Assembly (NCBI GenBank): GCA_023627715.1
Contig: JAMAHW010000186.1
Span: 1-21,412, forward strand
Direction: 5' to 3'
Source: Periconia sp. R9002
Lineage: Eukaryota; Ascomycota; Dothideomycetes; Pleosporales; Periconiaceae
Length of the DNA stretch: 21,412 bases
The notes beneath the pieces are model-generated. The model worked only from the letters and a program-made list of their open reading frames with translations. It searched no databases and had not been told where the DNA came from. Numbering within the stretch: the stretch's first letter is position 1; the number at the start of each line of letters is the position of its first letter. The translations under genes were made by a program, and so were the position numbers. Positions 2,954 through 20,602 of the stretch are shown here, one piece after another.

Positions 2954-3577
2954 CTATCCATGAAATACGGAAGAGTATAGCACCTGTGACTTCTCTTCCG
3001 CCCTCCTCAATTGCTCCAGATGATGTTCGCAGCTTCCATTGCGCAAATGAAGATCTCGCGCAGTTGCTCTTGTAAATGTACACTTGCATAGCAAGCATAT
3101 GAATTTCCGAGCTGTGTGCGCTTTTTCTCTTACATGTCGCTTGTAGTTTGTGTAGGTTGTGAAAGAACGCCCGTTGCACCCATGATCGAAGCAGCGAATT
3201 GTGGATACCGACCTGTTCCCTTCAATTGCGGTTGGAAATGGCAAAAGCGATAGTGCAGCCTTGGTATGCTGTTCGACCTCATTGAAAGGATTCGTGTAGG
3301 CGAATGAGTTTGAGCTTTCCTGATCTTGGAAAACATCTAAGCTGTGTAGGATGCTGCTGTCTGAATGCACGGAGTTTTTGATCATTAGACCAGAGTGTTC
3401 CGTCAAGTGGGTATGGCTCTCCAGCATCTTTTTTGGATTTAATGCGCTTTGCAAGCTGGTGGAGTTTGCATTGGCTGAAACCTTGTTCGGCAACGGATCG
3501 ATAGAGTTAACAGCGGACTGTTGAGAGATCCAAGAGGGGTAATAGTCCAAAGGCACGGGAGGGGAGTCTAAAGACAT
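2954..3577 (-). CDS. Small C2H2/C2HC zinc-finger protein
   Basis: Single-exon ORF of 207 residues starting MSLDSPPVPLDYYPSW. The first about 120 residues are Ser/Asn/His-rich and look disordered. The C-terminal part has two fingers: C129-x4-C134 with H148-x5-H154 (TYTNYKRHVREKAH), then C161-x2-C164 with H177-x5-C183, so the second finger is C2HC. The spacing and the RHVREKAH linker are typical of small Pezizomycotina zinc-finger proteins, probably DNA-binding regulators in the nucleus. No activation domain can be named. The target is unknown; convergent orientation to the MFS gene does not argue for co-regulation. An upstream 5' UTR intron is possible but not required. Confidence 0.72.
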   Translation of the reverse strand: MSLDSPPVPLDYYPSWISQQSAVNSIDPLPNKVSANANSTSLQSALNPKKMLESHTHLTEHSGLMIKNSVHSDSSILHSLDVFQDQESSNSFAYTNPFNEVEQHTKAALSLLPFPTAIEGNRSVSTIRCFDHGCNGRSFTTYTNYKRHVREKAHTARKFICLLCKCTFTRATARDLHLRNGSCEHHLEQLRRAEEKSQVLYSSVFHG

Positions 3578-4286
3578 CTTTCGGTGTAGAGCGATGACTA
3601 ATTAAGAAGAGGTTAAGGGCTAGAATAAAATGATATCACCATTGAGTGAAATTGTGAGGTGTTGGATTCATACCTGTTTGGGAACAATAATGGTCAATGA
3701 ATAGAGTATCAACCAAGTTCGTTGCTTGAATAGGACTAAACACATCTGGGTGCGGCACTCCCCTAACTATATGAGCCAAATGAATAAGGTGTCTTCACCT
3801 TGGTCAGACCGTCCAACGGCATATCTGCACGTATGCCCCTATCTTCCCGCCTATTATTAGTTGAATCCAGTAGCACGGAGGCGTAGTCGCATTGCTAAGA
3901 CCAAGTGCCTCTTTTACTCTACGGCAGCGCATCGGAGTTGCTTATTTAATACCGGTCAAGTATAACTACGGCGAGGGCAGGACAACCTGTCCGCACCGCC
4001 AATCATGTCAACATTGCCCGATCCCTAAGTCTCAGTTTAGTCCACTTGCTGTAAGTAGGGAACGGAATCTTTCCGCTATCTCCATTCGTATTCGGGGTTA
4101 AAGCTGACAATTCGCTTCGGGGCCGGTCGGTCTAGGGCCCAGCAAATTCAGTTGCTCCTACGCTACAGTCCTATGCATTGAAAGGATGTTGTGATGAATA
4201 CGGCATGTCTGCGGTGTCGTATTCCACGGCACATTGCCTACACCCTAGGACCTATGATAAAATGGCATCAGCCTTAAAAATAGCAT
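3578..4286. other. Intergenic, no gene recognised
   Basis: Upstream region of the zinc-finger gene (read on the minus strand) running toward an AT-rich island. Normal composition to about 4250, with short ORFs but no family match. A GC-richer patch with CTTCGGGGCCGGTCGG occurs near 4116. Nothing else can be supported. Confidence 0.4.
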
Positions 4287-6055: not shown

Positions 6056-9000
6056 CTAGGCATCATACTTCATCGGCAGATAACCACAGTTCTTCACCTT
6101 ATTCCCAGTAATCAGAGCTTCCAGTTTCGCATCCTCAAGTTGAGCTACCCCGTTCACGGGATCTTTGGCGAGGAAAATCTTTGGGAAGATACTGGCTTCG
6201 TACAGGCACACGATAGGGAAATAGACGGCGCCGGCTAAATCGGCGAGCACCAGAAGGGACTCACCCGTAGCGTCAATACTAGTTGAAGCAAAAGATCTGG
6301 ATACTATAGTTAGTTGAAGTGACTATAGAACAGTATACATCTACTCACAGAAGAGACGCTGTCTTCGGCATAGCATCCGCAGTATGAAGCCTTAACCTCC
6401 CCACGCCGTATCCATCAATCTCACTCTTATAGCCATGCAGATACCGACCATGAGAATCACCGATAACGAAATCACCGGATGGATCGGCGGCGAAGAGACC
6501 AGATGCGTCGTTGGGGTCTTCGACGTTTTGTGGTGGCACAGCGTAGATGTTGGCATTGCGCGAGTAGTGGAGGTTTAGGGAGCCGCTCCATGTTTTAATT
6601 TTTGATAACTTGGAGCCTTTCAGATTGGGAGAAACTGTACTGTTGCCAACGGGGGAAACTTGAACGGTAGTGTTGCCACTTGGGGAGGCTTGGACAGTAG
6701 TATTGCCAAAAGGGGAGGTTTGAACGGTAGTGTTCCCATGAGGCGGGCTTTGAGCAACAGGACTGCTCTGAGGTACGGTTTTGACGGAGCTGCTTGGAGG
6801 CGCGATTTGAATAGTTGTGCTTGGAGGAGAAATCTGGGGAGTGTTGCTTTGAGGGCCCTGAATAGTGCTTTCTTTCTGCAGGCTATAATAATGTCAGTAA
6901 TGAGTTTTCACGTCTTTCAAACGCACTTACACCACACAATGATCCCAAATGGATCCTTTGATATCGGACAACGTCTTTTTGCTCCCGAAGATATCCAAGG
7001 ATAGTTCATTGCCAAATCCGAGCTCGATGTTTAAGCCTTTACAATTGGGATCCGAGAACTGGCCGCCGCCATCGCGAGAGAACGAGGCCTCAACACCAGC
7101 CTTCAGGAACAGCTTTGGCTTTTCCACAATACCCACAGACTTATCGAAAACTCCACTGAGTATCTTCACTCCCACAGCCAGCTTAAGCGCCAAAAAGGCT
7201 TCGGCACTGAGAACAATTTTGGCCTTGCCCTCGAACACTGGCTTGGCATCCGGACCGAAATTTGGCATGACGGATTTGTCTTTGTCTTTGAGGTCGAAAC
7301 GTGCAGTGAAGTTTGGTACATCAGCAGTGAATCCCGCAAGAAGTTGGCCTTCAGCCAGAATTTCGACCTGAGCACCGGCAGACAGCGACACGGACGGACC
7401 AAGCGTGATGATTCCGGGAATCGTATATGGCGTGAGTGGGATGGTAACAAGTTCTTTGTCAAAGCCCCAGTGATCTTTGTATGATGCAACAATACCGAGT
7501 TGGAGTCCAGCGTGAAGGTTGCCATCAGCGCTGATGTATCCTTCCTCCAGTCCTTTGATAACGCTAAAGGTGACCTTACCTTGTAGCACCATTTTTCCGG
7601 ACGCGCCGCAGTCAACGCAGTAGACAGCTGCCGAGCCAGAGCCGCCGGGAGTCGATTTACTGAACAGCTCAACGCCGGGACCCCATGGTGTCTGTTTTGT
7701 ATTTTGGTTCTTCTTGGTGTCAAAGCTGAAATCCTTGTTGAAGGACTTGGTGATACTGAGCCATTTACCGAGGGTATCGATTCCTTTGTCAATGACGTCT
7801 AATCGCATTAGATTTTTTCCTCTCATGGTTCTGGTTTTGAACGCTTACCGCCCACCTTCCCAGTTACCTTCTTTACTGCATCTCCGACTTTGTCGACAGT
7901 GTCCTTCACTGCATTTCCTATCTGCGCAGATGTCAGTGACTATGATCTGAGAGCACCCGAAATAACACTACCTTCTTTAAGCCCTTTTTGATGCTGCTGA
8001 AAAGCCCACGCCTAGCAAGATGTCGTTTTCTGAAGCCCGCACCGGGTAGAATATCGGGAATATCATCATCCCCCGCCAAGTCTTCCAGAGATACATTGTA
8101 TCTACCAAGCATCTGTGTCTGGAATTCTTCGGTTGTCATCACTCCGATTTGACGATCAAGGTCCTCGTCAAAGCTGCTGTCACCACTTGGGTCTCGGGTC
8201 CCATTGGAAGGCGAAGATGGAGGATTGATACCAGTAGCGTTTGTCTTTCCCGGAGGACCGGTTGCGGGGATGTTGAAACCTTCCGTGCTATTTGTTTGAA
8301 AGTTGCCAAAGCTAAAGTCGATTGGGGTTTCTCCACCTACGGCATCCGCAAAGCTCACTGGCTCAGATTTCCCTGTAACTGTCATTGTTGAATTGTTCGC
8401 AGTCACGCTCTTAACGAGAATGTAACCTCGCTGCATGACCTCCGTGTTGAGGCGACAATTCGGATCGATGGTGATGAGCAGGAAGCCGGATTTGTGAGAA
8501 GACCAATCAGCATGGGCAACGCTGAAGGCTTTCTGGCTGTTGAATTTGACTTGGACAGTGCTATTGGAACAATCGACCGACGAGATATACGACGTATGCT
8601 CGAGTTGGACTGATGGGTACTGCATGTTCTCAACCTTCAAAAATCCGACCGCGGTGTTATTTGATGGAGCTGCCACTCATTAGTACGATATCCATAGTAG
8701 AGAATAGGGGCTTGCAGACGAATTGCCTTTCCACCACGACGTTCAATCTCGTGTTCACAATAGAACATGTCAACGGTCTTGTTTGCTTGTAAGTTTTCCA
8801 CGCGTTGGAGATCAACATCCCAATGCACAGCAGCGTTAAGTGACGTTGCTGCTGGAGGGTTCGCAATGGTAGCCGACGGCTGCTCAGTGACCAAAACAGT
8901 CGTGGGAGCTGGAGTTTGCAGACCCTTAGGATATCCGTCTCCTAGACCAGTTGTGTGAGCACATGTTCCTTCTGTCTTGGTGACGGTCTTGACGACTTCA

Positions 9001-9119
9001 ATGGTGCGTATCTCTACGGGCCGATATCCATCTCCATCTTGAACTACCGGGGCTGCCTGAACAGCAACATAAAGGGAGAAAATCCCAAGTAAGTATCCAA
9101 AATTTCTGGACAAAATCAT
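6056..9119 (-). CDS. Large secreted DUF7029/DUF7223-like protein
   Basis: Six exons: 9119-8720, 8669-7972, 7921-7849, 7798-6931, 6882-6349, 6296-6056; total 2814 nt, 937 residues, all phases consistent. The first donor is uncertain: GTCTGC at 8719 gives a 50-bp intron with a TACTAAT branch site; GTGGAA at 8734 is also in phase (932 residues). The start at 9119 gives a clean signal peptide (FGYLLGIFSLYVAVQA, cut before APVV); an upstream in-frame start would bury it. Order: Thr/Pro-rich N-terminus; DUF7029-like beta domain about 140-235 (YPSVQLEHTSYISSV, FLLIT, C); acidic linker; KR and RR pairs then an amphipathic segment about 355-405; DUF7223-like domain about 410-680 with CVDC; Ser/Pro/Thr region with 10-residue repeats about 729-765; novel-looking C-terminal about 150 residues. 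Probably extracellular or cell-wall linked; no enzyme motif seen. Domain names are from memory of similar fungal proteins. Confidence 0.8.
6640..6759 (-). repeat. 30-bp coding minisatellite
   Basis: Four 30-bp units at 6640-6669, 6670-6699, 6700-6729 and a weaker 6730-6759 lie inside exon 5 of the secreted-protein gene. Read on the minus strand they encode GNTTVQ(T/A/V)SP(F/S/V) units, each with an N-glycosylation sequon (NTT, NST in the last). The unit length keeps the frame, so copy number could vary between strains without breaking the gene. Confidence 0.85.
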
Positions 9120-10401
9120 GTCGACTTGGGTGCCTCTGGTAGAATGACGGTTATCAGACTTTGTGTTCAAGAGATTGGCAGTAGAGCAATATTAAAAAAG
9201 AGTGGCCGTCCTTAAGACACGAAAAAGCTCAAAAGCACAAACGAGTGAATTGTCGAAATGAATATGAAAAAAACGAATGTGTGAGTGGTGGCAGTGCCAT
9301 AGCATCGCGACAGCTGAATGTGGATCTGGTTCATATTTGTACGCGCGCACTTCGTATCTACAGCTGAAAGTCTGCTGAGCTCTGCGGAGCTCTGCGATAT
9401 TGGCACTGCAGATACGGTTGGTGTTTAGGTTACAGCTTGTCGCCAGAGGAAGGTAGTACATGCACGAGCCCGATGTCCGACGCAGATGCAAGGGGCACAA
9501 CAGTAGACCAGGGTTAGCGAAACGGTAAATACCTGCCATTCTAAGTCGAATCCTGAACTTCTGCTACTGAGATATGCCGTGTACCGTGTTACCCAGTCTC
9601 GCCCCCAAATCTATGCAATTTTTGTACCGGCGAGCGTTGCCGTTCGCATTATCATATTTCAGCTCGAACAAGCAAGCTATTCTTAGAATGCTTTGCCAAG
9701 AGCGTATAGCAATACGAGAGCGTACTTAGACAGCAAACTTAACCAGCCATCATGAGGCAGTGAACGCCAAATGTGAAGCTTTTGTCGAAAGCCAGCACAT
9801 AACTGAGCTTTAGAACGCGCCCTTGAAAGTTGAATCTTTCCTGTCCATTCTCTACGCGCGTGGCGTCGCACCAAGCGCAGATCAGCTTCATTTTGTTAAA
9901 GAAACGGTAGCTATTTTTGACATACGCCTCATATGAGCCAATGGCTGACAGCCAGAACACGATCGTACCTGATCTTCTTCGCTTCGCCCTGCATGAGGAC
10001 ACGACCTTGCTTTCTTGGGTGTTGCCATCCTTACCTAGATACACACAACTGACACCCGTGGACGAGAAACATAAATGACAGTTGCATACAATGCACTCGG
10101 CAAGGCTCGTTGCTTCAAGCGTCATCTGTTTTGCTTTTCAATCCTCACATCTTTTCTATCGTTTTTGTTCTTCCAAAAGCAACATCTGCAATACCTGCGG
10201 TTGCGATAGATGGATTGGTGGGGACTTGGGTGTCGCTAATTAGTTTTTCGTATTGTGCGTCGATGCCAGTACACCCCCGCATATGCTTACGGTTTACCCC
10301 AGCGTCACGGCCCGTACTATGATCTGCATTTGGAGCGCTCCAACTAGCTGTATTATGCCTGGTTAGCACTACGATATTTTAGCTCAGTTCTCAGATATGT
10401 A
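9120..10401. other. Gene-poor stretch with one weak cysteine-rich ORF
   Basis: Upstream of the secreted-protein gene. A minus-strand ORF at 9739-10125 (128 codons) contains CNCHLCFSSTG and, later, CAWCD. The order resembles the CxCxxC and CxxC zinc sites of GFA/CENP-V (glutathione-dependent formaldehyde-activating-like) proteins, and a GTAAGG donor-like site follows the first motif. The family's N-terminal strand and remaining core are missing, so it may be a decayed fragment or chance. A further minus-strand ORF at 10145-10369 shows no family match. No confident gene is called. Confidence 0.3.
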
Positions 10402-11178: not shown

Positions 11179-14100
11179 TCATGTTTTCCCAGACCTGTCA
11201 CCAATCATAGACTCATTTCGGAGGGGCGATTCGATGAGACTGTCCCTTCGCATATGCAAATGTTCTTCCTTACCTTGGTATTTTTCCGCATTATCCCGAC
11301 CACTGTACACGCCCCTACCCTCCCCGCCATCATACCGAACATTCCACGTGGAGGGAGTGGCACGGAGAGCATCCCATCGTGGCGTGGCGTAACGCAGCAA
11401 TGATGGCCTTTCATTGTAACCTGGAAGACCCTCGCTGGGCGTGTAGACGCGCTTGAGACGACCAGTGCTATCGTGAGCCACACGCAGATTGCGCAGACGA
11501 GAGGTTGTTTTGAGCAATGAAGTGAGTGCAGCAAGAGATAACTGCCGAGATAGGCTGACGCGTTGCAGAATTTCTCCCCCCGTCCCACGAACCGAGCTAT
11601 ACAAGAGGTAGTTTGATCGATTCCGAGATCGCGAATCAATCCTAAAAGAATTTGGATTTGGAAAGATTTTCGGGTCGTGGTTTGCAGCTTGGATGTCGGC
11701 GAACACAACCGTGTTTTCCGGGAAGCTAACAGTGATGGAAGAAGGTGATCTGTCGGTCACCTTTGGACCAAGGTATTTTCGCACAAGGTAGCCCGTCGCT
11801 GACAATCGCTGAGTTTCGAGCACATAGCTAACTATCTCTTCATCTTTGTTCTCAAAAGCAAGTTCTTGTAGGCGCTTCCAAAGCTCAGTACGCGCACCGG
11901 GAAGAAGTGCATTGTCGTGGTCAAAGTCTGAGCTCTTGGGGTCGATGAAAAATGCAAGCATTTCGGTAAATGCAAGGTTAATCTTGTAGACGGACTCGAG
12001 GGTAAAATTCAACATCAAGGCTGCGACTTCCTCGCTAGTGAAGCCCTTGCTGTTCAAAGCTTGGACAGTGTTGACTCCGAGCTGACGGACTTGTCGGATA
12101 GCTTTTGAATCTCCCTTGGCACCATACTTTCGGCCAAAATTGCGCCATCCGAAGAGGCCAGCAGATGAAGCATAAGCTCCATCGCAAGACAACTCATAGA
12201 GTTTCTGAATGGAGGTTTGGAACACCTGACGCCGTTTCATTCCTTTCGTAACATCCGCATCCCAGGCTTGGTAGTTTTGGCAACTCTCGATGAGGTCAAA
12301 TATATCATTCTCAAAGAACTCCCGATCCGGAAACTCTGCCGTTTTGACGCGCTCCCAAAACCCCATGAAATCGCCCATGAAACATACGAGTATGGGAATG
12401 ACAAAATCCTTCACAACGTCCAGTTGTAGAACTTGAACACCATCGCGTTGTTGAAAGGGGCGCTGTTCCCGTTCCCGGATACGATTTGCAACAGATGTGA
12501 AGTAGTCGAGGAAATATCCACGCAGAAGTTCTTCGGAGCCCAAGGTTGATTCAAGCACTTCCATAGCTTCGTCCCAGCGTTCATATTTATCCAACATCAT
12601 TGAGCGCAATGGTCCAGCCGGGATATCAGAAGGGTGAGACATGGTAGGATTTGACCACATCGTAGTCTTGCGACCTAGGAATTCATCCCTTATAGTGATG
12701 TAGTCACTGAGAATTGCCGGTTTCTGGACGACTTTTGTGGCGAGCTCCACGCCCGCCCAACCAGGATTGCGCTCGGGATGTGGCTTCAACTGCCGACGAA
12801 GACGAAAAGTGCCGCGGTTGCGTGAAAGCAAAGTCTTGACAAAGTCATTAGGAACTTGTCCGCGGTTGCCTCCACGAGCAATGAGTTCGGGTTCCAAGGC
12901 ACGCCAGGTCGGACTACTCTCCTTGGCATCTTCAAATCGATATTCGAGGCCGCCGAGGTCCAGGTTATTGAGATAACCTTGCTCCTCAGCAAGCACTAGG
13001 TTTCTCGCTGGTGTATAGTATGGCTCCCACAGATGGAGGGAATTGTACGCAAAGTATCCAGGGAATGCCCGCTGACACAGCCGATGCAACAGACCACCTT
13101 TGTTGATTGTTGGGTCGGAGGCGACTTCCGACATTCCCCAAGCTGTGATGGAATCCACGTTCCAGTCTGTCGTATAGAATCGGTCAGATCGGACAAGGGT
13201 AACAGCGTCCGAGAAGACACCTCTCCAGAGCGTTGTGGTTCCATTTGGACAGGTCACGTTCGGGTCCAAGTTCCTTGTTCGCCCCTCACAAAGGTACCCG
13301 GGGTACATCTCCACCATGTCTGGATCCTCATACAGGTCGCGCAAACGGTCAATGATGATAGGATCATCTGTGATATCTTCGAAATGCTCATGCTGCTTCA
13401 TACCAAAGAAATGTCGAAACTCGTTGAGTGTGGCCACTCCCCACTTGCGAGACTGCAAAATTCCTAGCATCTCAATGGATTTGAAGGCTTTCGGGATTTG
13501 TCGGGCACCAAAACTGCAGATGGGATCTTCAATAGAGCGCACAAGCTCCGCAACAAGCTGCGAATCGTCGAAGTATCCCGTCTTTGCATCTCTGCGGAAT
13601 TTAAATTGATTGGTCGGATGAGACATGTCGCCCCCAACGCGATCCAAACCGACAGGAAAATATGGCCTCGACATACGCTCTTTTGAATCAGCATCGGCCC
13701 TTTGATTGGCATCTCTGATCTTGCCCATCATGATAGGTACTGGTATATCACCTTTCTCAAACATCGTGCTCGTCATTTTTTGACCTGTGGCAATTTCTTC
13801 CTCGGTAGCCTTGTCGTCAATCTTGTCAGCCATCCAAAGTCTGAGTAACTCTGTAGACCAATCGGCATCTCTCACAGAAATGGCGCTGTGAAAGCGATAC
13901 AAGAGGTTGAACTCCACGGAAACCATGTTGCCCTCGCCGCGCTTGAAAGTTCCACGGTCTAACAAACTGTTGTACTCCGCGCGGGGATCAAGAGTCCACG
14001 AGGTATCCTTTGCGTGCATCATCATCAAACATCGCAGGTAATCATGGATGGCGATTTGTGCGTAGAGACCGCATGTGATTAGGCGAGATGTTTGGAAGAG

Positions 14101-14949
14101 ATCCTCGTCCCGTTTGACAAGACACTCCTTCTGCGCCTCTGTTTCCATGTCGGAAAAATTAGACGGCAGTGAGAATCGCCCATTATCGTTGATTTCGAGG
14201 AGTTGTTTGGCCACATAATTATGGAAGCGGTTGTACATGATGAGGAAGATGCTGACGCCAGCGGGTTGATTCAGTAGACGATGGTCAGCAAAAGTGTCCG
14301 GTTTCAGTAAGCCATCCTTCATTGTTCGCACACTTTTCTGAGCCTTGTCATTACTGCCGTACAATGGGGCCAGATCAAGGTAGGATGAAGTGTCTGAAAT
14401 GTTCCTGTCGTTCTCGTTCGTTCTGAAAATGTCGTGAATCACGATAGTAGCTTGATAGAGAAGAAAACTTGAGATGCCAGTGTCACTCTCACGACCTCTG
14501 TTATCTAACTCCTCTCGTGCCATGAGTAAATCAAATAGGTCACCAGGATCCGGTTTGGCACCAAGCATAGAGCGTTGCCCTTGGACAGACTTGGCGTAAG
14601 GGAGACCAGCCATTCCCAGTTGCGGAAAGAGAGCGTTGTGTTTACTGCCATCAGCGGTCCTGTATTGGAAATCGTGTCCCCGATACGACGTGGGTGGATG
14701 GAGCATAGATCCCCACAAGTAATGCACCACGCCACGAGTCAACAGTCCATTCAAAGGATCGTTCAGAGGAATATCAGGGATAACATCCTTCGAAGCGGCC
14801 ACCAGTCCAGCTGATTTGAATGCTGATCTATTGTTCCACAAGGCTGTAAATAAGTTTCGCAAGCTTTGCAATTTACTGACACTCTCTGTTTTCGTGTGGA
14901 GAGACGCATCCTCATGGAAATTGGGCGTGATTGTTTTAGAGGACGGCAT
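11179..14949 (-). CDS. Ppo-like fatty acid heme dioxygenase with degenerate P450 domain
   Basis: One uninterrupted 1256-codon ORF. Residues about 60-560 match the cyclooxygenase-like heme peroxidase domain of fungal Ppo/linoleate diol synthases: LNDPLNG, LFPQLGMAGLPYAKSVQG, distal His172 in IHDIFRT, calcium-loop SSYLDLAPLYG, NRFHNYV, catalytic Tyr351 and proximal His354 in EFNLLYRFH. This domain should make an 8- or 10-hydroperoxide from C18 fatty acids. Residues about 740-1205 are the P450-like half, with ExxR kept (E1045-R1048, ETQR). The heme-thiolate Cys expected near 1127 is absent: the frame reads SSVRGTGGEILQRVSLSRQ. The I-helix Asn/Gln motif for isomerisation also looks altered (YKINLAF). 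YRFH replaces the usual YRWH. Longer than PpoA (1081 residues), and with no introns. Likely a dioxygenase without isomerase activity, as reported for PpoC-type enzymes; exact product unknown. Confidence 0.85.
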   Translation of the reverse strand: MPSSKTITPNFHEDASLHTKTESVSKLQSLRNLFTALWNNRSAFKSAGLVAASKDVIPDIPLNDPLNGLLTRGVVHYLWGSMLHPPTSYRGHDFQYRTADGSKHNALFPQLGMAGLPYAKSVQGQRSMLGAKPDPGDLFDLLMAREELDNRGRESDTGISSFLLYQATIVIHDIFRTNENDRNISDTSSYLDLAPLYGSNDKAQKSVRTMKDGLLKPDTFADHRLLNQPAGVSIFLIMYNRFHNYVAKQLLEINDNGRFSLPSNFSDMETEAQKECLVKRDEDLFQTSRLITCGLYAQIAIHDYLRCLMMMHAKDTSWTLDPRAEYNSLLDRGTFKRGEGNMVSVEFNLLYRFHSAISVRDADWSTELLRLWMADKIDDKATEEEIATGQKMTSTMFEKGDIPVPIMMGKIRDANQRADADSKERMSRPYFPVGLDRVGGDMSHPTNQFKFRRDAKTGYFDDSQLVAELVRSIEDPICSFGARQIPKAFKSIEMLGILQSRKWGVATLNEFRHFFGMKQHEHFEDITDDPIIIDRLRDLYEDPDMVEMYPGYLCEGRTRNLDPNVTCPNGTTTLWRGVFSDAVTLVRSDRFYTTDWNVDSITAWGMSEVASDPTINKGGLLHRLCQRAFPGYFAYNSLHLWEPYYTPARNLVLAEEQGYLNNLDLGGLEYRFEDAKESSPTWRALEPELIARGGNRGQVPNDFVKTLLSRNRGTFRLRRQLKPHPERNPGWAGVELATKVVQKPAILSDYITIRDEFLGRKTTMWSNPTMSHPSDIPAGPLRSMMLDKYERWDEAMEVLESTLGSEELLRGYFLDYFTSVANRIREREQRPFQQRDGVQVLQLDVVKDFVIPILVCFMGDFMGFWERVKTAEFPDREFFENDIFDLIESCQNYQAWDADVTKGMKRRQVFQTSIQKLYELSCDGAYASSAGLFGWRNFGRKYGAKGDSKAIRQVRQLGVNTVQALNSKGFTSEEVAALMLNFTLESVYKINLAFTEMLAFFIDPKSSDFDHDNALLPGARTELWKRLQELAFENKDEEIVSYVLETQRLSATGYLVRKYLGPKVTDRSPSSITVSFPENTVVFADIQAANHDPKIFPNPNSFRIDSRSRNRSNYLLYSSVRGTGGEILQRVSLSRQLSLAALTSLLKTTSRLRNLRVAHDSTGRLKRVYTPSEGLPGYNERPSLLRYATPRWDALRATPSTWNVRYDGGEGRGVYSGRDNAEKYQGKEEHLHMRRDSLIESPLRNESMIGDRSGKT

Positions 14950-15088
14950 TGGGAAGGAGTTGTTGGGAATTTGACAATCTGGTAATTTTGTTCTGATGAG
15001 ATCAAAGCAGGTGGTTCGTCCGAGGAAAAATATTTATCAAGTTTGCAACTTCATGAGAAGGATGGAGCTCAAACCGTCGATCAACTTT
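14950..15088 (-). promoter_or_regulatory. Proximal upstream region of the dioxygenase gene
   Basis: Short 5' flank on the minus strand between the start codon and the duplicated block at 15089. AATATTTAT at 15029-15037 is AT-rich and could act in core promoter function. Inferred from position only. Confidence 0.3.
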
Positions 15089-15352
15089 ACGTAGCTATCC
15101 GGTAAGGGTAAATGTAAAGCATCACTATGAACTAATAAACGTATCCACGACATTGTGTGATCCGTCTTTGGCGATATTCAGGTTAACGTTGGTCGACCGC
15201 TATTTAGAGGGATTAGAGATTTGCTGACGTTACGTAGCTATTGGTAAGGGCATCACTATGGACTCCATGATATTTCTGGATCAGCATTTGCTAATATTTA
15301 GATTAACGTTGCTCGACCGCGGTTCGAGGAATTGGAGTTCTGCTAAGAAGTT
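15089..15352. repeat. Degenerate tandem duplication upstream of the dioxygenase gene
   Basis: Two units, 15089-15231 and 15232-15352. Both start ACGTAGCTAT, continue GGTAAGGG and GCATCACTATG, and share GTTAACGTTG(G/C)TCGACCGC and a GAG(G)GATT/GAGGAATTGGAG tail. They differ by indels, so the duplication is old. It lies 140-400 bp 5' of the dioxygenase start codon, so the doubled GTTAACGTTG-TCGACCGC block could be a duplicated regulatory site. That role is inference. Confidence 0.7.
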
Positions 15353-15513
15353 CTAGGTAGGCTGTAGTACCCTGTTGTAAGGACGACCAGCAATCAGGCG
15401 ACCAGTCTCTAGCAAACAAATGCTTGAGAACACTAACGGAAGTGTTTAACAGGCTACTTAGGAGTAAGTAGATATCGTACGTAGAAAAACTACATCACGG
15501 ATGTACAGATGTA

Positions 15514-15581
15514 CAGGGAGGTGAAAGGACAGGACATGATGATTCGGGCCGCTGGTGCCTTTCAAGAATCGAATCAATCAG
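15514..15581. mobile_element. Truncated MITE, left end only
   Basis: Begins after TA at 15512-15513 with CAGGGAGGTGAAAGGACAGG and continues GATTCGGGCCGCTGGTGC, then AAGAATCGAATCAATCAG. This matches the left end and inner sequence of the element at 17848 position by position to about 15581, then similarity stops and no right terminal repeat is seen. A decayed or truncated copy of the same family. Confidence 0.7.
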
Positions 15582-16129
15582 AGGCATCATTCTAACTGAT
15601 GTGTTTCATTGGAGCCTCAGCCATTCAGTCTATGGGCTCAGAATTAGTTTGCACCAATGATGCCCAAATTTCTCTAGTTCACACTCTAGGTAGGTGTTCC
15701 CACTAACTACAAGGAATTCCCTTGATGGTGAACCCGCAAGCAATCGGAGCTACGTCCTCGGTAGTACAGGGGGTTAGGCGCGTTGGATGGTACGGCATTG
15801 GCCCGTTACGTCAAAATTATGAATGTACCCAGGAATACTTGCAGAGACGAAAGCTATTGAGAAGTCTATTCGAGAGACGCTTTTCGATATACTAACGGGG
15901 TGATGCTGTAACTCCGAACGTTCTCGCCCCTGTGCAGAAAAGTGGACTCCATCGTTGCTATCTTTTAGAGTTCCCAAGATTTTGCATTGCGGATGGTTTG
16001 CAAAATCCTTTAATCACTTCATTCTATTAGTTAGCACGTCTCATTTAAAATAAGTCAAACAGTATTGTAACATGATATTGGCTGTAATTAGGTAATTCTC
16101 AAGCAACTATTGATGATGCATCTGCCAGG
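15582..16129. other. Intergenic between dioxygenase and catalase-like genes
   Basis: 3' flank of the catalase-like gene and distal 5' flank of the dioxygenase gene (both minus strand). Short ORFs only, none with family resemblance. No further repeat detected. Confidence 0.4.
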
Positions 16130-17195
16130 CTACTCTACTTGTTCTTCCTTCCTTCTTTGATCTGCGCTGATCCAGTAAACACCCTTCCTCACCGGAATCA
16201 GGGGATCAGCGGAAGATTTGATGCCCTTGATCCCGCCACTCTCTGGTGCTGAGCTGAAAGCAAGCTCCTTCTGCTTGGCTGCATTGTTGTCTGAAATCTT
16301 GTTGATCTCCAACTTTCCAATTGGAACGAATGTTGAGCTCTTGTATGGGACGGTAGCGTCGTCAAGGACGTCATCGGGGTCTGCAACATGCGCCACAACT
16401 GTCAACTTGATCGGTTTTCCGGGAAACCGCTCTTTGAGATCATTCTCCAAATAGTCTGGTCCAAGCTTTTTGAACTCTTCGGAGTCGTTGTCGTAGAGAT
16501 GATGTCCATCCTCAGGATCGAGGCGATATCGGACATTGCTTACTTTACCATCCGCATTCGTCAAGACGTGGGTGTTAACCTGATAGTAGGTTATAGTACC
16601 GTAATTGAACGGGTTAGGTTTTGGGGCGGTTGCGAAAATTAAGGCTGAGGGATGACTAAGCAAGAAGGCCTTTTGAGCCGCTTCGGCTTGTTTGAAACTT
16701 TCTTGCTCTTTGGAGTAATCCCCGCCTTGTGACATAACTGCCTTCAAACGACCCCCGGCTTTCTTGGCTTCAATGGTAAGCTGCAGAAAGGTCAAGAACT
16801 CCTCTCCCGTTCTAGTTGCAAACCCATTGAACGAGTGACAAATCATATCAGTATGAGTGCCGTCGTCAATCAGAAAACGGATGGCGATTCCTTTGGGAGT
16901 TGATGCGTCGTCGAAATCAGGAGCTTTTGGCGAACCTCCACCCACCGAAAATCGAGCTATGACTGGAGTAGAAGGGTTGTTGAAATGGGGCGCTGTAGAA
17001 AGTTCGTTGGCTTCCGAGGTTGGTGTGAAAACGCCCTCGACAAGCAGGCCTTTGGCATGTGCTACAGAACTTGGTTAATTTGACATAATGAACGGACATG
17101 TTTAACTCACTTGTGCGATAACCTGAATGTTTCCCAAAGATTTTTTGCATATTCTCCACCAGTTGCTCTGGGAGTGAATCTTTTGACGTAGTCAT
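16130..17195 (-). CDS. Small catalase-related hemoprotein (SrpA/AOS-like)
   Basis: Two exons, 17195-17111 and 17061-16130, joined by a 49-bp intron (GTGAGT...CTGTAG); 1017 nt, 338 residues. The start MTTSKDSLPEQLVENMQKIF aligns with the family's usual N-terminus; an in-frame ATG at 17267 would add 24 residues. Heme-pocket features: distal His30 in TTHAKG (its codon just follows the intron), ARFSVGGGSP at 64-73, TDMICHSFNGFATRTGEEF at 99-117, and proximal Tyr324 in R320-KGV-Y with DPLIPVRKGVYWIS. Length fits small catalase relatives (about 330-350), not true catalases (about 500+). Such proteins act on organic or fatty acid hydroperoxides. Thr29 directly before the distal His is the coral allene oxide synthase arrangement that suppresses catalase activity; the usual distal Asn position holds His104. 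It lies upstream of, and in the same direction as, the dioxygenase gene. Substrate is not known. Confidence 0.86.
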
Positions 17196-17847
17196 TCTGT
17201 TCAATGTATTGTGAGAGAGATTCGCAGTTATGTTGGTGAAAAAAGAGTGAGAGAACGCCTTTTCCATTCGGGGATGATCTTAAATTTAATGAAATAGCGG
17301 CTTCGACCCAGAGTATCATTGCAATATCTGATACCGAGCATAAATGTGAACTAGTTACCCGTACATGACAAGTAGAAACATCAATTCCAACCGTGGTCAT
17401 GTTGAGTAGACTAATTGAGAAGCATTGTCTACAGCAGCGAAGTTATTAGGATACATGGCTTGGGGGTACCTGATGCCGTTGGCCAATCTTCGTTAGCAAT
17501 TGCATACCACTTGTGATCATTGCACCTATGAAGTAAACATTGTTGAAGTATTTGCAATCAATCCATGATTGTCAATGGTCGAGGGATCCGAAACCCATGG
17601 TTCTACAATAACTGCTTCCACATCAACCATAAGACTTCTCTATTACGTGTCCCTTGATTTACTTTATACGCGCCTATAGCCGGAACGTTACAGTATTCTT
17701 CTTACCGTGTGGATACTATGGGTAAGATACTGCCTCGCGATGAAAACTCACATCTTTAACGAAGTAAGCTTTCCTTGCCTTAATTACAATAATATGACCC
17801 TGGGCAAATTAGCGTCGAATCTTGATGCTGCTTATGGAAAGTCCCTA
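17196..17847. other. 5' flank of the catalase-like gene
   Basis: Part of a 1.5-kb divergent region between the catalase-like (-) and DUF2235 (+) genes. ORFs are short and show no family resemblance; those at 17107-17400 overlap the catalase first exon in another frame. May hold shared regulatory sites, but none can be named. Confidence 0.4.
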
Positions 17848-18002
17848 CAGAGGGTCGACAAGACGGGTCATAACGATTCGGGCCGCTAGTGCTTTTGAAG
17901 AATCCAACCAATCAGACTTTCAGATTTTGCCATATTTGTTAGCAATTTTTCTATGGTACACTAGGGGCCCGAATCATTATGTCCCGCTGTGTCACCCCCC
18001 TG
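17848..18002. mobile_element. MITE with 44-bp terminal inverted repeats
   Basis: 155 bp, flanked by TA at 17846-17847 and 18003-18004. Left repeat 17848-17891 starts CAGAGGGTCGACAAGACGGG and ends GATTCGGGCCGCTAGTG; the right repeat 17959-18002, read in complement, starts CAGGGGGGTGACACAGCGGG and ends GATTCGGGCCCCTAGTG. The 67-bp centre is AT-rich and non-coding. Same family as 15514 and same tips as 10402. It sits in the shared upstream region of the catalase-like and DUF2235 genes. Confidence 0.88.
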
Positions 18003-18722
18003 TATTATAATGTCTTACCGATGTTTGCTCCAGGTAGATCAAATCCAAGCTTCCAAAGCATCTTATATGGTTGGCCAGGGATCAGTTATCGACCAAGTAC
18101 GAGGTCGGATAAGCAGCCTCATCCCTATGGGCTGGTACTAGTGTTCCAGTGCCTTTAAATTAAGACATAACTGCGACATCCGCAGTCAGCTTAGACAACC
18201 TTTCCGATGTCCATTAAGGTTGATGTGATCGACGAGCCTGGTGCGCAATGCTGGCAAGAGTTAGCTGCCGCCAGTCGTTCAATAAAAATGGTAAGCTAGG
18301 CGTTAGTGAGTCCTCGATTACATGATGTGTCGTTCATTAGCGCGCTACAATATGGTTCAGTTGCTGCATCACGGCTTGCGAAGCCAGACGAATAATAGGT
18401 AATCACAATTGTGATAAACAGATTACGCAAACGCTGATGTAGTTGATAGAATAAATCATTATTACGATACTCAATCTAGCAATAGACGATGTAACAATAA
18501 TGATACGGTCTGGTCTTTGATTCGAGTTATATGCTATGTTTTAGTATCGTAGGTCACTCGGTATCAACTGTTCAATTGATTGTTCGTTGCAACTATTTTC
18601 GAGATTTTGACTTTCATTCAATTTTGCCCGATACGCAAAATCACCGCGAACAATTTGCGGAGGTGAATACTGTTCCAACTTGAAATCTGATACGCCGATC
18701 TCGCCGAAGGACTTCGTGAAAT
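18003..18722. other. 5' flank of the DUF2235 gene
   Basis: Non-coding. AT-rich around 18400-18620, consistent with a promoter for the + strand gene, but no specific element can be named. No repeat found. Confidence 0.35.
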
Positions 18723-20602
18723 ATGGCCGACATCCCGTGGCGGCGCCGAATTGTCATTTGTTGTGATGGGACATGGCAATCGAGCGTTACCTCACAGGAC
18801 AACATTCCATCCAATGTCACGAAGCTCGCGCGACATATCAAGCGCACTGGTACGGACTCTGATGGCAATAAGTATAACCAGATCGTCTACTACGATTCCG
18901 GAGTCGGTACCGGCTCACTGTCCTCATTCGAAAAGGCTCGCCAAGGAGGCCTTGGGGATGGTCTCGCGGAAAATGTGATTGAAGCGTACAATTTCATTTC
19001 TCTCAACTACCAGCCGGGCGACGAAATTTTCTGCTTCGGGTTCTCTAGAGGAGCTTATACCGCACGGGCTGTTGCTGGCTTAGTGGGCGATATCGGCGTT
19101 CTTGAGCCCAGTGATATGTTATTGTTTCCTGGGCTGTATCGAGGTTATATGGAGAGACAGCACGGAGAACCATTTAAGAGCACTAAGGCCTGGAAACATT
19201 ACAAAGCAATAGTGCAAGCCCGCGAGGATGCAAAACGAAAACTGTTGGGGAATTATGTCCCTCCGACTGAAATTGATACTTGTGTTAAGGTCAAAGTGGT
19301 CGGAGTCTGGGATACGGTAGGAAGCTTGGGTATTCCAGACGGCAGATTCACAGAACATGACAGTCTTCGCTCACAGTATGGTTTTCACAATGTGAGATTG
19401 AGTCGCCGTACGTTCTAGTGCATTCTTGAGAGAGCTTAATTGGACTAATGAAAGACAGATATCGAACATGCTTTTCACGCTTTAGCGCTGGACGAACGAC
19501 GTAGAGCATTTGGTCCCACATTATGGTATATTCCATACGAAGACATCAAGCAGGGAGGTGATCTTCCCGAGCTGAAACAAGTATGGTTTCCCGGATATCA
19601 TATCAACGTCGGTGGCGGGTCTGATGATGGAATAAAGGAAATGGAGGGTGATATAGAAGGTAAGTTTCTTCCCAAAGGAAGGATTCCAGAAATTTACTTA
19701 CCTATATCTTCGCAGCTATGGCAAACATTACGTTCGCATGGATGCTTCAGTGCATTTCACCTTACATCGAGATAGACGTTGATGCATTTCAGACCCATGT
19801 TGTGGACTACCAAGTGTGGCTGGACGAAGCCGAGCACCGCTGTATGAGACATCATCCCTCCCAAGAAGGTTATGGTGAATGGCTGTACAACAAAGTTAGT
19901 GGGGCACCTATCCAAGAGCCAAAGGCGCATGGCCATATCATCGATCGTGGATGGGGTACAGGTCCAATGCCCGACAGTCTTGCAGGAGTGATGTACAACT
20001 ATGCAGGCGGTGTAACACGCACTCCCGGTTCTTGCAAGGTTGAAGTTTGGGAGAATGGGAATTACGTCGAAAAGCCTATCAGAGATGTTGGCATCACAAA
20101 TGAGTATATCCATCCTGTCACTGCCTATCGTCGTTTCGACTACAACAATTCGCCAAAGCAGAAATTGGGGTGGTTCGAATCCATGAAATCATCTTCACCT
20201 CCACTCAAAGACCTCACAAAGCCGCAAGTTCCTTTCGAACAAAAGAAACACGAGATCCAAGGGAGGACTTTGATTGGGAGTGATGGTATCAACACGAAGC
20301 AGTTTTGTTGGCTAAACGGTGATGTACCTCTGCCGAAGTGGCACATTCTGGACCACAAAACTGGTCGGGTCAAAGCGAGACAATATTACTGGGATGAGGG
20401 AGATGTCATGCTACCTGAATGGATCATTCTTGATCACAAACCTGGGCAAATTGATTTCGAAAGGATGTGGCTGGAAACCGGAGATGGCCGCGCGGATGAT
20501 GAAAGCAAATGGCTTCAATTGATGGATGTGCAGCTCAAAGACACATTTGATTATATTAGAAGTAACGAAGCATCTGCGTATCCAGGAGTGCTTCTTAGAT
20601 AG
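18723..20602 (+). CDS. DUF2235 (Tle1-like) alpha/beta hydrolase
   Basis: Three exons, 18723-19407, 19459-19659, 19716-20602; introns 51 and 56 bp (GTACGT..ACAG with ACTAAT branch; GTAAGT..GCAG); 590 residues, phases consistent. DUF2235 features: IVICCDGTWQS at 10-20, nucleophile elbow GFSRG with Ser108, VGVWDTVGSLG with Asp197, junction-restored HIEHAFHALALDERR at 229-243, and WFPGYHINVGGG with His276, giving a Ser-Asp-His triad. The usual D in HxDVGGG is N here. Known bacterial members (Tle1) are phospholipases; fungal members are mostly uncharacterised. No signal peptide, so probably intracellular. The C-terminal part after about 450 is lineage-specific and holds two 27-28-residue tandem repeats. 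It is divergent to the catalase-like gene. Lipase activity is inferred from the family and not shown. Confidence 0.88.
20300..20464 (+). repeat. Tandem repeat encoding two 27-28-residue units
   Basis: Within the DUF2235 gene, residues 491-517 and 518-545. Both units carry W-x2-GDV-x-LP-x-W-x-ILDHK-x-G: WLNGDVPLPKWHILDHKTG and WDEGDVMLPEWIILDHKPG. A weak third start (MWLETGDG) follows. An internal duplication in the C-terminal tail. Confidence 0.85.

Follow-up and report, generated by a model that had tools for sequence, protein, structure and literature searches.

A Ppo-type fatty-acid dioxygenase gene beside a catalase-like gene in Periconia sp. R9002, a possible two-gene oxylipin unit

The window analyzed here is the whole of contig C186 of the Periconia sp. 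R9002 assembly (42.9 Mb in 267 contigs), a stretch of 21,412 bases, and because the window is the entire contig, the gene neighborhood ends with it. A Ppo-type fatty-acid dioxygenase gene and a catalase-like gene lie on it as a minus-strand tandem, 1,180 bases apart. A DUF2235 hydrolase gene diverges from them on the plus strand, its start 1,527 bases from that of the catalase-like gene. An earlier note on this DNA had described these three genes as adjacent, which our analysis confirms: they lie where it placed them, all have Pfam matches, and all three models are free of internal stop codons. Splice sites were predicted from the sequence alone. We tentatively propose that the Ppo-type and catalase-like proteins form a two-gene oxylipin unit, and we give this proposal slightly less than an even chance. 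The features are as follows.

11179 to 14949, minus strand: Ppo-type gene, one uninterrupted frame of 1,256 codons with a dioxygenase half and a P450-like half (Pfam matches)
13000 to 14682, minus strand: dioxygenase half, residues ~90 to 650, with distal His172, catalytic Tyr351 (Y-R-F-H), proximal His354, Arg576, and Phe579
11290 to 12852, minus strand: P450-like half, residues ~700 to 1220, with ExxR kept and no later Cys (fold from the predicted model of P0124)
16130 to 17061, minus strand: catalase-like exon 2, with the stop codon (Pfam Catalase)
17062 to 17110, minus strand: catalase-like intron of 49 nucleotides (nt), between the codons of distal R-T and T-H
17111 to 17195, minus strand: catalase-like exon 1 (splice model)
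18723 to 20602, plus strand: DUF2235 (T6SS_Tle1-like_cat) gene with exons at 18723 to 19407, 19459 to 19659, and 19716 to 20602, outside the proposed unit

The Ppo frame runs from 15033 to 11179 (1,284 codons), and its likely Met at 14949 gives a protein of 1,256 amino acids that matches Pfam An_peroxidase (E-value of 2.3e-26) and aligns through its N-terminal half to cyclooxygenases (COX) and plant alpha-dioxygenases. When the window protein was aligned with the best 120 of 525 relatives, the distal His proved conserved in 118 of the 121 rows and the catalytic Tyr and the proximal His in 119 each; the window protein has all three, as do the fungal dioxygenase (DOX)-cytochrome P450 (CYP) enzymes. 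Oliw (2026; PMC13049297) tabulates as marks of 9-DOX a YxF motif (as opposed to YxW in 8-DOX, 10R-DOX, and COX), a terminal RxV(F or L), and a cavity-entrance Arg. The window protein carries Y351-R-F-H354, Arg576, and the terminus R-G-V-F-S-D-A-V-T-L-V, and hence all of these motifs. Judged by these residues, it is consistent with the 9-DOX type and shares its Phe with 9R-DOX. Nearly every row has YxF (120 of 121) and the Phe (119 of 121), so that both are marks of the whole aligned group; the cavity-entrance Arg occurs in 21 of 121 rows overall and in 8 of the 9 that are closest (the window protein and P0121 to P0128). Within the genome, matches to the window Ppo are confined to contigs C186, C7, C6, and C37, and the two further Ppo genes on C7 and C6 carry YxW. 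The one on C7 (L029, 4806 to 8231) is a long intron-free frame of 1,142 codons which, by eye, also lacks the P450 Cys motif. A scan of viral contigs with the Ppo query found no relatives. Upstream of the Ppo start, a 57-nt stretch is directly repeated (15144 to 15200 and 15264 to 15320; 74%) at a distance of 120 bases, and it has no further match in the genome.

The second half of the Ppo protein matches Pfam p450 at 5.9e-4, below the family cutoff. It keeps the ExxR motif, after which there is not one Cys, so that the heme-thiolate ligand is absent. The predicted model of the relative P0124 shows a P450 fold in its P450-like part; we used that part alone, as a stand-in for the window protein, from a weak model (mean predicted local distance difference test score of 58.7). 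The P450-like half would keep the P450 fold on this model yet, lacking the ligand, be dead as an enzyme. The missing Cys ligand rules out a working DOX-allene oxide synthase or diol synthase. A looser pattern for Cys ligands in other rows did not hold up, as 8 of the 9 rows that it matched did so at other places, and a conserved replacement of Cys by Ser was ruled out by the Ser of the window protein standing against Thr in P0121. Among the best 120 of 525 relatives, many fungal fatty-acid dioxygenases have a P450-like half without the Cys. The missing ligand supplies a reason for a second enzyme, a point that the earlier note did not contain.

A candidate for this second enzyme is the product of the neighboring gene. 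The catalase-like frame (17074 to 16130) matches Pfam Catalase at 3e-21. Translation probably begins in a short upstream exon at 17195, and splicing over a GT..AG intron of 49 nt (17110 to 17062) gives a product of 338 amino acids. The spliced protein has an R-T-T-H distal motif and an RxxxY ligand motif; the Ala that seems to precede the distal His is an artifact of reading the unspliced frame, and the spliced model has Thr instead. A catalase fold was seen for the relative P0002. The catalase-like protein is 64.8% identical to FG05_02217 (P0036) of Fusarium, which we take to be Fg-cat, the partner of an adjacent lipoxygenase (LOX). In a tree of 117 rows, built from the best 120 of 207 relatives with 5 of less than 255 amino acids left out, it falls within the family that holds FG05_02217. 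Activity of Fg-cat on fatty acid hydroperoxides is described in a passage of a review.

Proteins of the Fg-cat kind and their kin are encoded in the genome on C186, C4, and, weakly, C5 only. The contig of the C4 mini-catalase gene has neither a DOX nor a LOX, and the nearby frames look housekeeping-like by eye. A further catalase match on C36 (L019, 181473 to 182219) contains three in-frame TGA codons in AT-rich sequence (37% GC) and is perhaps a decayed copy. With P0044 as the query, a scan of viral contigs found no relatives of the catalase-like protein. Genome contigs yielded 40 bacterial loci, and their flanks gave no match to the DOX profile or to LOX queries, the latter being the single frames of this genome, which may miss distant LOXs.

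The adjacency of Ppo and catalase-like genes is probably shared by one further fungus, because the contigs of the top Ppo relative, P0121, and of the catalase-like relative P0044 are equal in size and both proteins group with those of the window. Both are Joint Genome Institute (JGI) proteins, each on a sole contig of 11,400 bases. P0044 joins the catalase-like clade of the window (4 rows; SH-like approximate likelihood ratio test [SH-aLRT] support of 90 in the 117-row tree), and P0121 is in its Ppo clade (3 rows; support of 99 in a tree of 47 of 122 sequences). A jitter test of this equality gave 0.0017 when limited to JGI rows (13 x 4), a restriction chosen with the match already in view, and 0.05 among all rows of 3 to 60 kb (37 x 31). 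A supposed adjacency in Microdochium trichocladiopsis, based on the shared size of 2,037,821, was ruled out, as the contig is of 2 Mb and the Ppo is distant.

Several known systems resemble this arrangement. In Fusarium graminearum, a catalase-like gene of the same family likewise lies beside that of a fatty-acid hydroperoxide maker, the 13S-lipoxygenase paired with Fg-cat, as Teder et al. (2017) indicate in their title. The separate fungal pair, which the earlier note described as a parallel solution, therefore has a precedent in fungi. In the window, however, the neighbor is a Ppo-type heme dioxygenase and not a lipoxygenase, and the LOX gene of the genome is on another contig. In Nostoc punctiforme, according to PMC9579011 and PMC13049297 (citing Brash et al., 2014), the hydroperoxide formed by a COX-like 10S-DOX can be converted by the product of a separate gene, a catalase-related 10S-hydroperoxide lyase. 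The window likewise has a COX-like heme dioxygenase gene and a separate catalase-related gene, here adjacent, and by analogy a similar conversion may take place; the Nostoc system, however, is bacterial and has no P450-like half, whereas the window protein would be of the 9-DOX type with a dead one. A Cys-less P450-like half, with the second step left to another enzyme, is also a feature of 10R-DOX-1/PpoC and of Coprinopsis CcDOX1 (PMC13049297 and PMC9579011). In contrast to these, the window protein has YxF and the Arg of the 9-DOX type, not YxW, and a candidate for the second enzyme is encoded next door. Finally, the coral catalase-related allene oxide synthase (cAOS) and hydroperoxide lyase (PMC5617202) share the R-x-T-H distal motif, the Tyr ligand, and the catalase fold, but are fused to lipoxygenase. 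Coral cAOS is absent from our sequence and fold match lists, which neither establishes closeness nor indicates a difference.

We infer the substrate, the product, and the coupling of the Ppo-type and catalase-like proteins along the following lines. The 9-type heme dioxygenase half would oxygenate linoleic acid, judging from its residues most likely to the 9-hydroperoxide. Because the heme-thiolate Cys is missing, the P450-like half would leave the hydroperoxide unrearranged, and it would pass in trans to the neighboring mini-catalase of the Fg-cat family. This enzyme, with Tyr-ligated heme and a distal Thr-His pair, might convert it to an epoxy-ketone, an allene oxide, a cleavage product, or an alcohol. 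Of the oxylipin pathway proposed in the earlier note, the two parts that stand are the dioxygenase, whose residues are intact, and the catalase-like protein, which belongs to the FG05_02217 family; its hydrolase step is considered below.

Several points weigh against such a unit. Fg-cat is reportedly inactive on 9-hydroperoxides. The chief objection is that Teder et al. (2017), in their title, present Fg-cat as selective for 13S-hydroperoxides. Glu116 is the only alignment position that cleanly sets the clade of the window apart from eight members from Fusarium, Fonsecaea, and Metarhizium, so that the alignment shows no sign of a changed substrate, and no position in the catalase-like protein was assigned as the equivalent of the distal Asn. 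The selectivity and the single separating position together mean either that the specificity changed in a subtler way or that the true partner is a lipoxygenase. The genome does have a LOX, on contig C87 only, and the catalase-like enzyme could serve it in trans on 13S-hydroperoxides, as in Fusarium, with the Ppo gene an incidental neighbor. The identity of about 65% to FG05_02217 favors this explanation as well, but the LOX contig has no catalase match and the Ppo/catalase-like pair has a probable second instance; we regard it as unlikely, though the strongest of the rival readings.

Further points concern the pair itself. The loss of the Cys is older and wider than the Ppo/catalase-like pair and hence did not arise with it. 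The probable second pair is deduced from equal contig size and from trees, and equality by chance is also seen, the size 2,965 occurring in two lists. Clohesyomyces has the close Ppo P0124 and is not named among the best 120 of 207 relatives of the catalase-like protein; Microdochium bolleyi has both kinds of gene, on different contigs. In neither family is the pair a general feature, and the synteny of dioxygenase and catalase-like genes, which the earlier note had put forward as a check, extends probably to one further genome.

The two genes might also be chance neighbors. In that case, the catalase-like protein would be a peroxidase for organic peroxides in general, with no relation to the dioxygenase, and rearrangement around repeats resembling miniature inverted-repeat transposable elements (MITEs) might have brought the two genes together. 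We consider this explanation improbable. The restricted occurrence of the pair and the shortness of C186 speak for it, and so do the MITE-like copies that flank the catalase-like gene, but P0121 and P0044, with contigs of equal size and corresponding places in the trees, argue for something other than chance. The MITE-like element lies upstream of the catalase-like gene at 17846 to 18004; it is about 160 bases long, and its inverted ends of 46 nt are 80% complementary. A 71-nt part of such an element (79%) lies at 15512 to 15582, between the catalase-like and Ppo genes. The element has 15 matches genome-wide, including partial ones and those of the window itself. The bracketing of the catalase-like gene by these copies is a possible trace of its arrival there.

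If the two-gene unit exists, a 9-dioxygenase with a dead P450-like half would receive its second step in trans from a catalase-fold family that elsewhere partners lipoxygenase, and one mini-catalase family would serve both kinds of hydroperoxide maker; this broader claim is a more doubtful one. It would mean that the family is able to exchange a lipoxygenase partner for a heme dioxygenase and vice versa, and its members might include ascomycete hydroperoxide lyases or allene oxide synthases that are not P450 enzymes. Which enzymes handle the hydroperoxides of Cys-less fungal dioxygenases is a wider question, and the adjoining catalase-like gene names an ascomycete candidate for the second step. 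In mushrooms, the enzyme that cleaves the 10-hydroperoxide is called uncharacterized in the review PMC11719350 and in PMC9579011, although the title of PMC9410191 claims an Agaricus bisporus dioxygenase with hydroperoxide lyase. We found no description of a fungal Ppo gene beside a catalase-like gene in the open-access literature; most subscription papers lay outside this search, which does not imply that the arrangement is unpublished.

The DUF2235/Tle1-like gene, modeled with three exons and two introns, encodes a protein of 590 amino acids. In the fullest version of the pathway, which was that of the earlier note, this hydrolase would act as a lipase that frees the fatty acid, the Ppo would oxygenate it, and the catalase-like enzyme would convert the product. 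We judge a three-step group of this kind very improbable. The gene is adjacent, its Pfam family takes its name from a phospholipase effector, and the sequence contains a GFSRG motif, but it is on the divergent strand, five or more loci of this family occur in the genome, and the best-scoring relative (among the best 120 of 7,479) is 54% identical over 99% of the length. No contig size is common to these best 120 and the Ppo list, a weak test, because the unspliced exons of the gene fall under the length limit of the search. Membership of the hydrolase in the pathway is thus left without support. The size 2,965 is common to the DUF2235 and catalase-like lists, comes from different sources, and was taken as chance. 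A comparison of the DUF2235 protein with solved structures gave no match. By their names, its relatives point to Dothideomycetes; a search of the assembly for 5.8S rRNA was negative.

Elsewhere in the window, neighboring minus-strand frames at 6345 to 9191 with DUF7029 and DUF7223 are probably parts of one intron-containing protein. The frame at 1064 to 2293 encodes a major facilitator superfamily (MFS) transporter, and the one at 2954 to 3601 has a zinc-finger match that is weak and below the cutoff.
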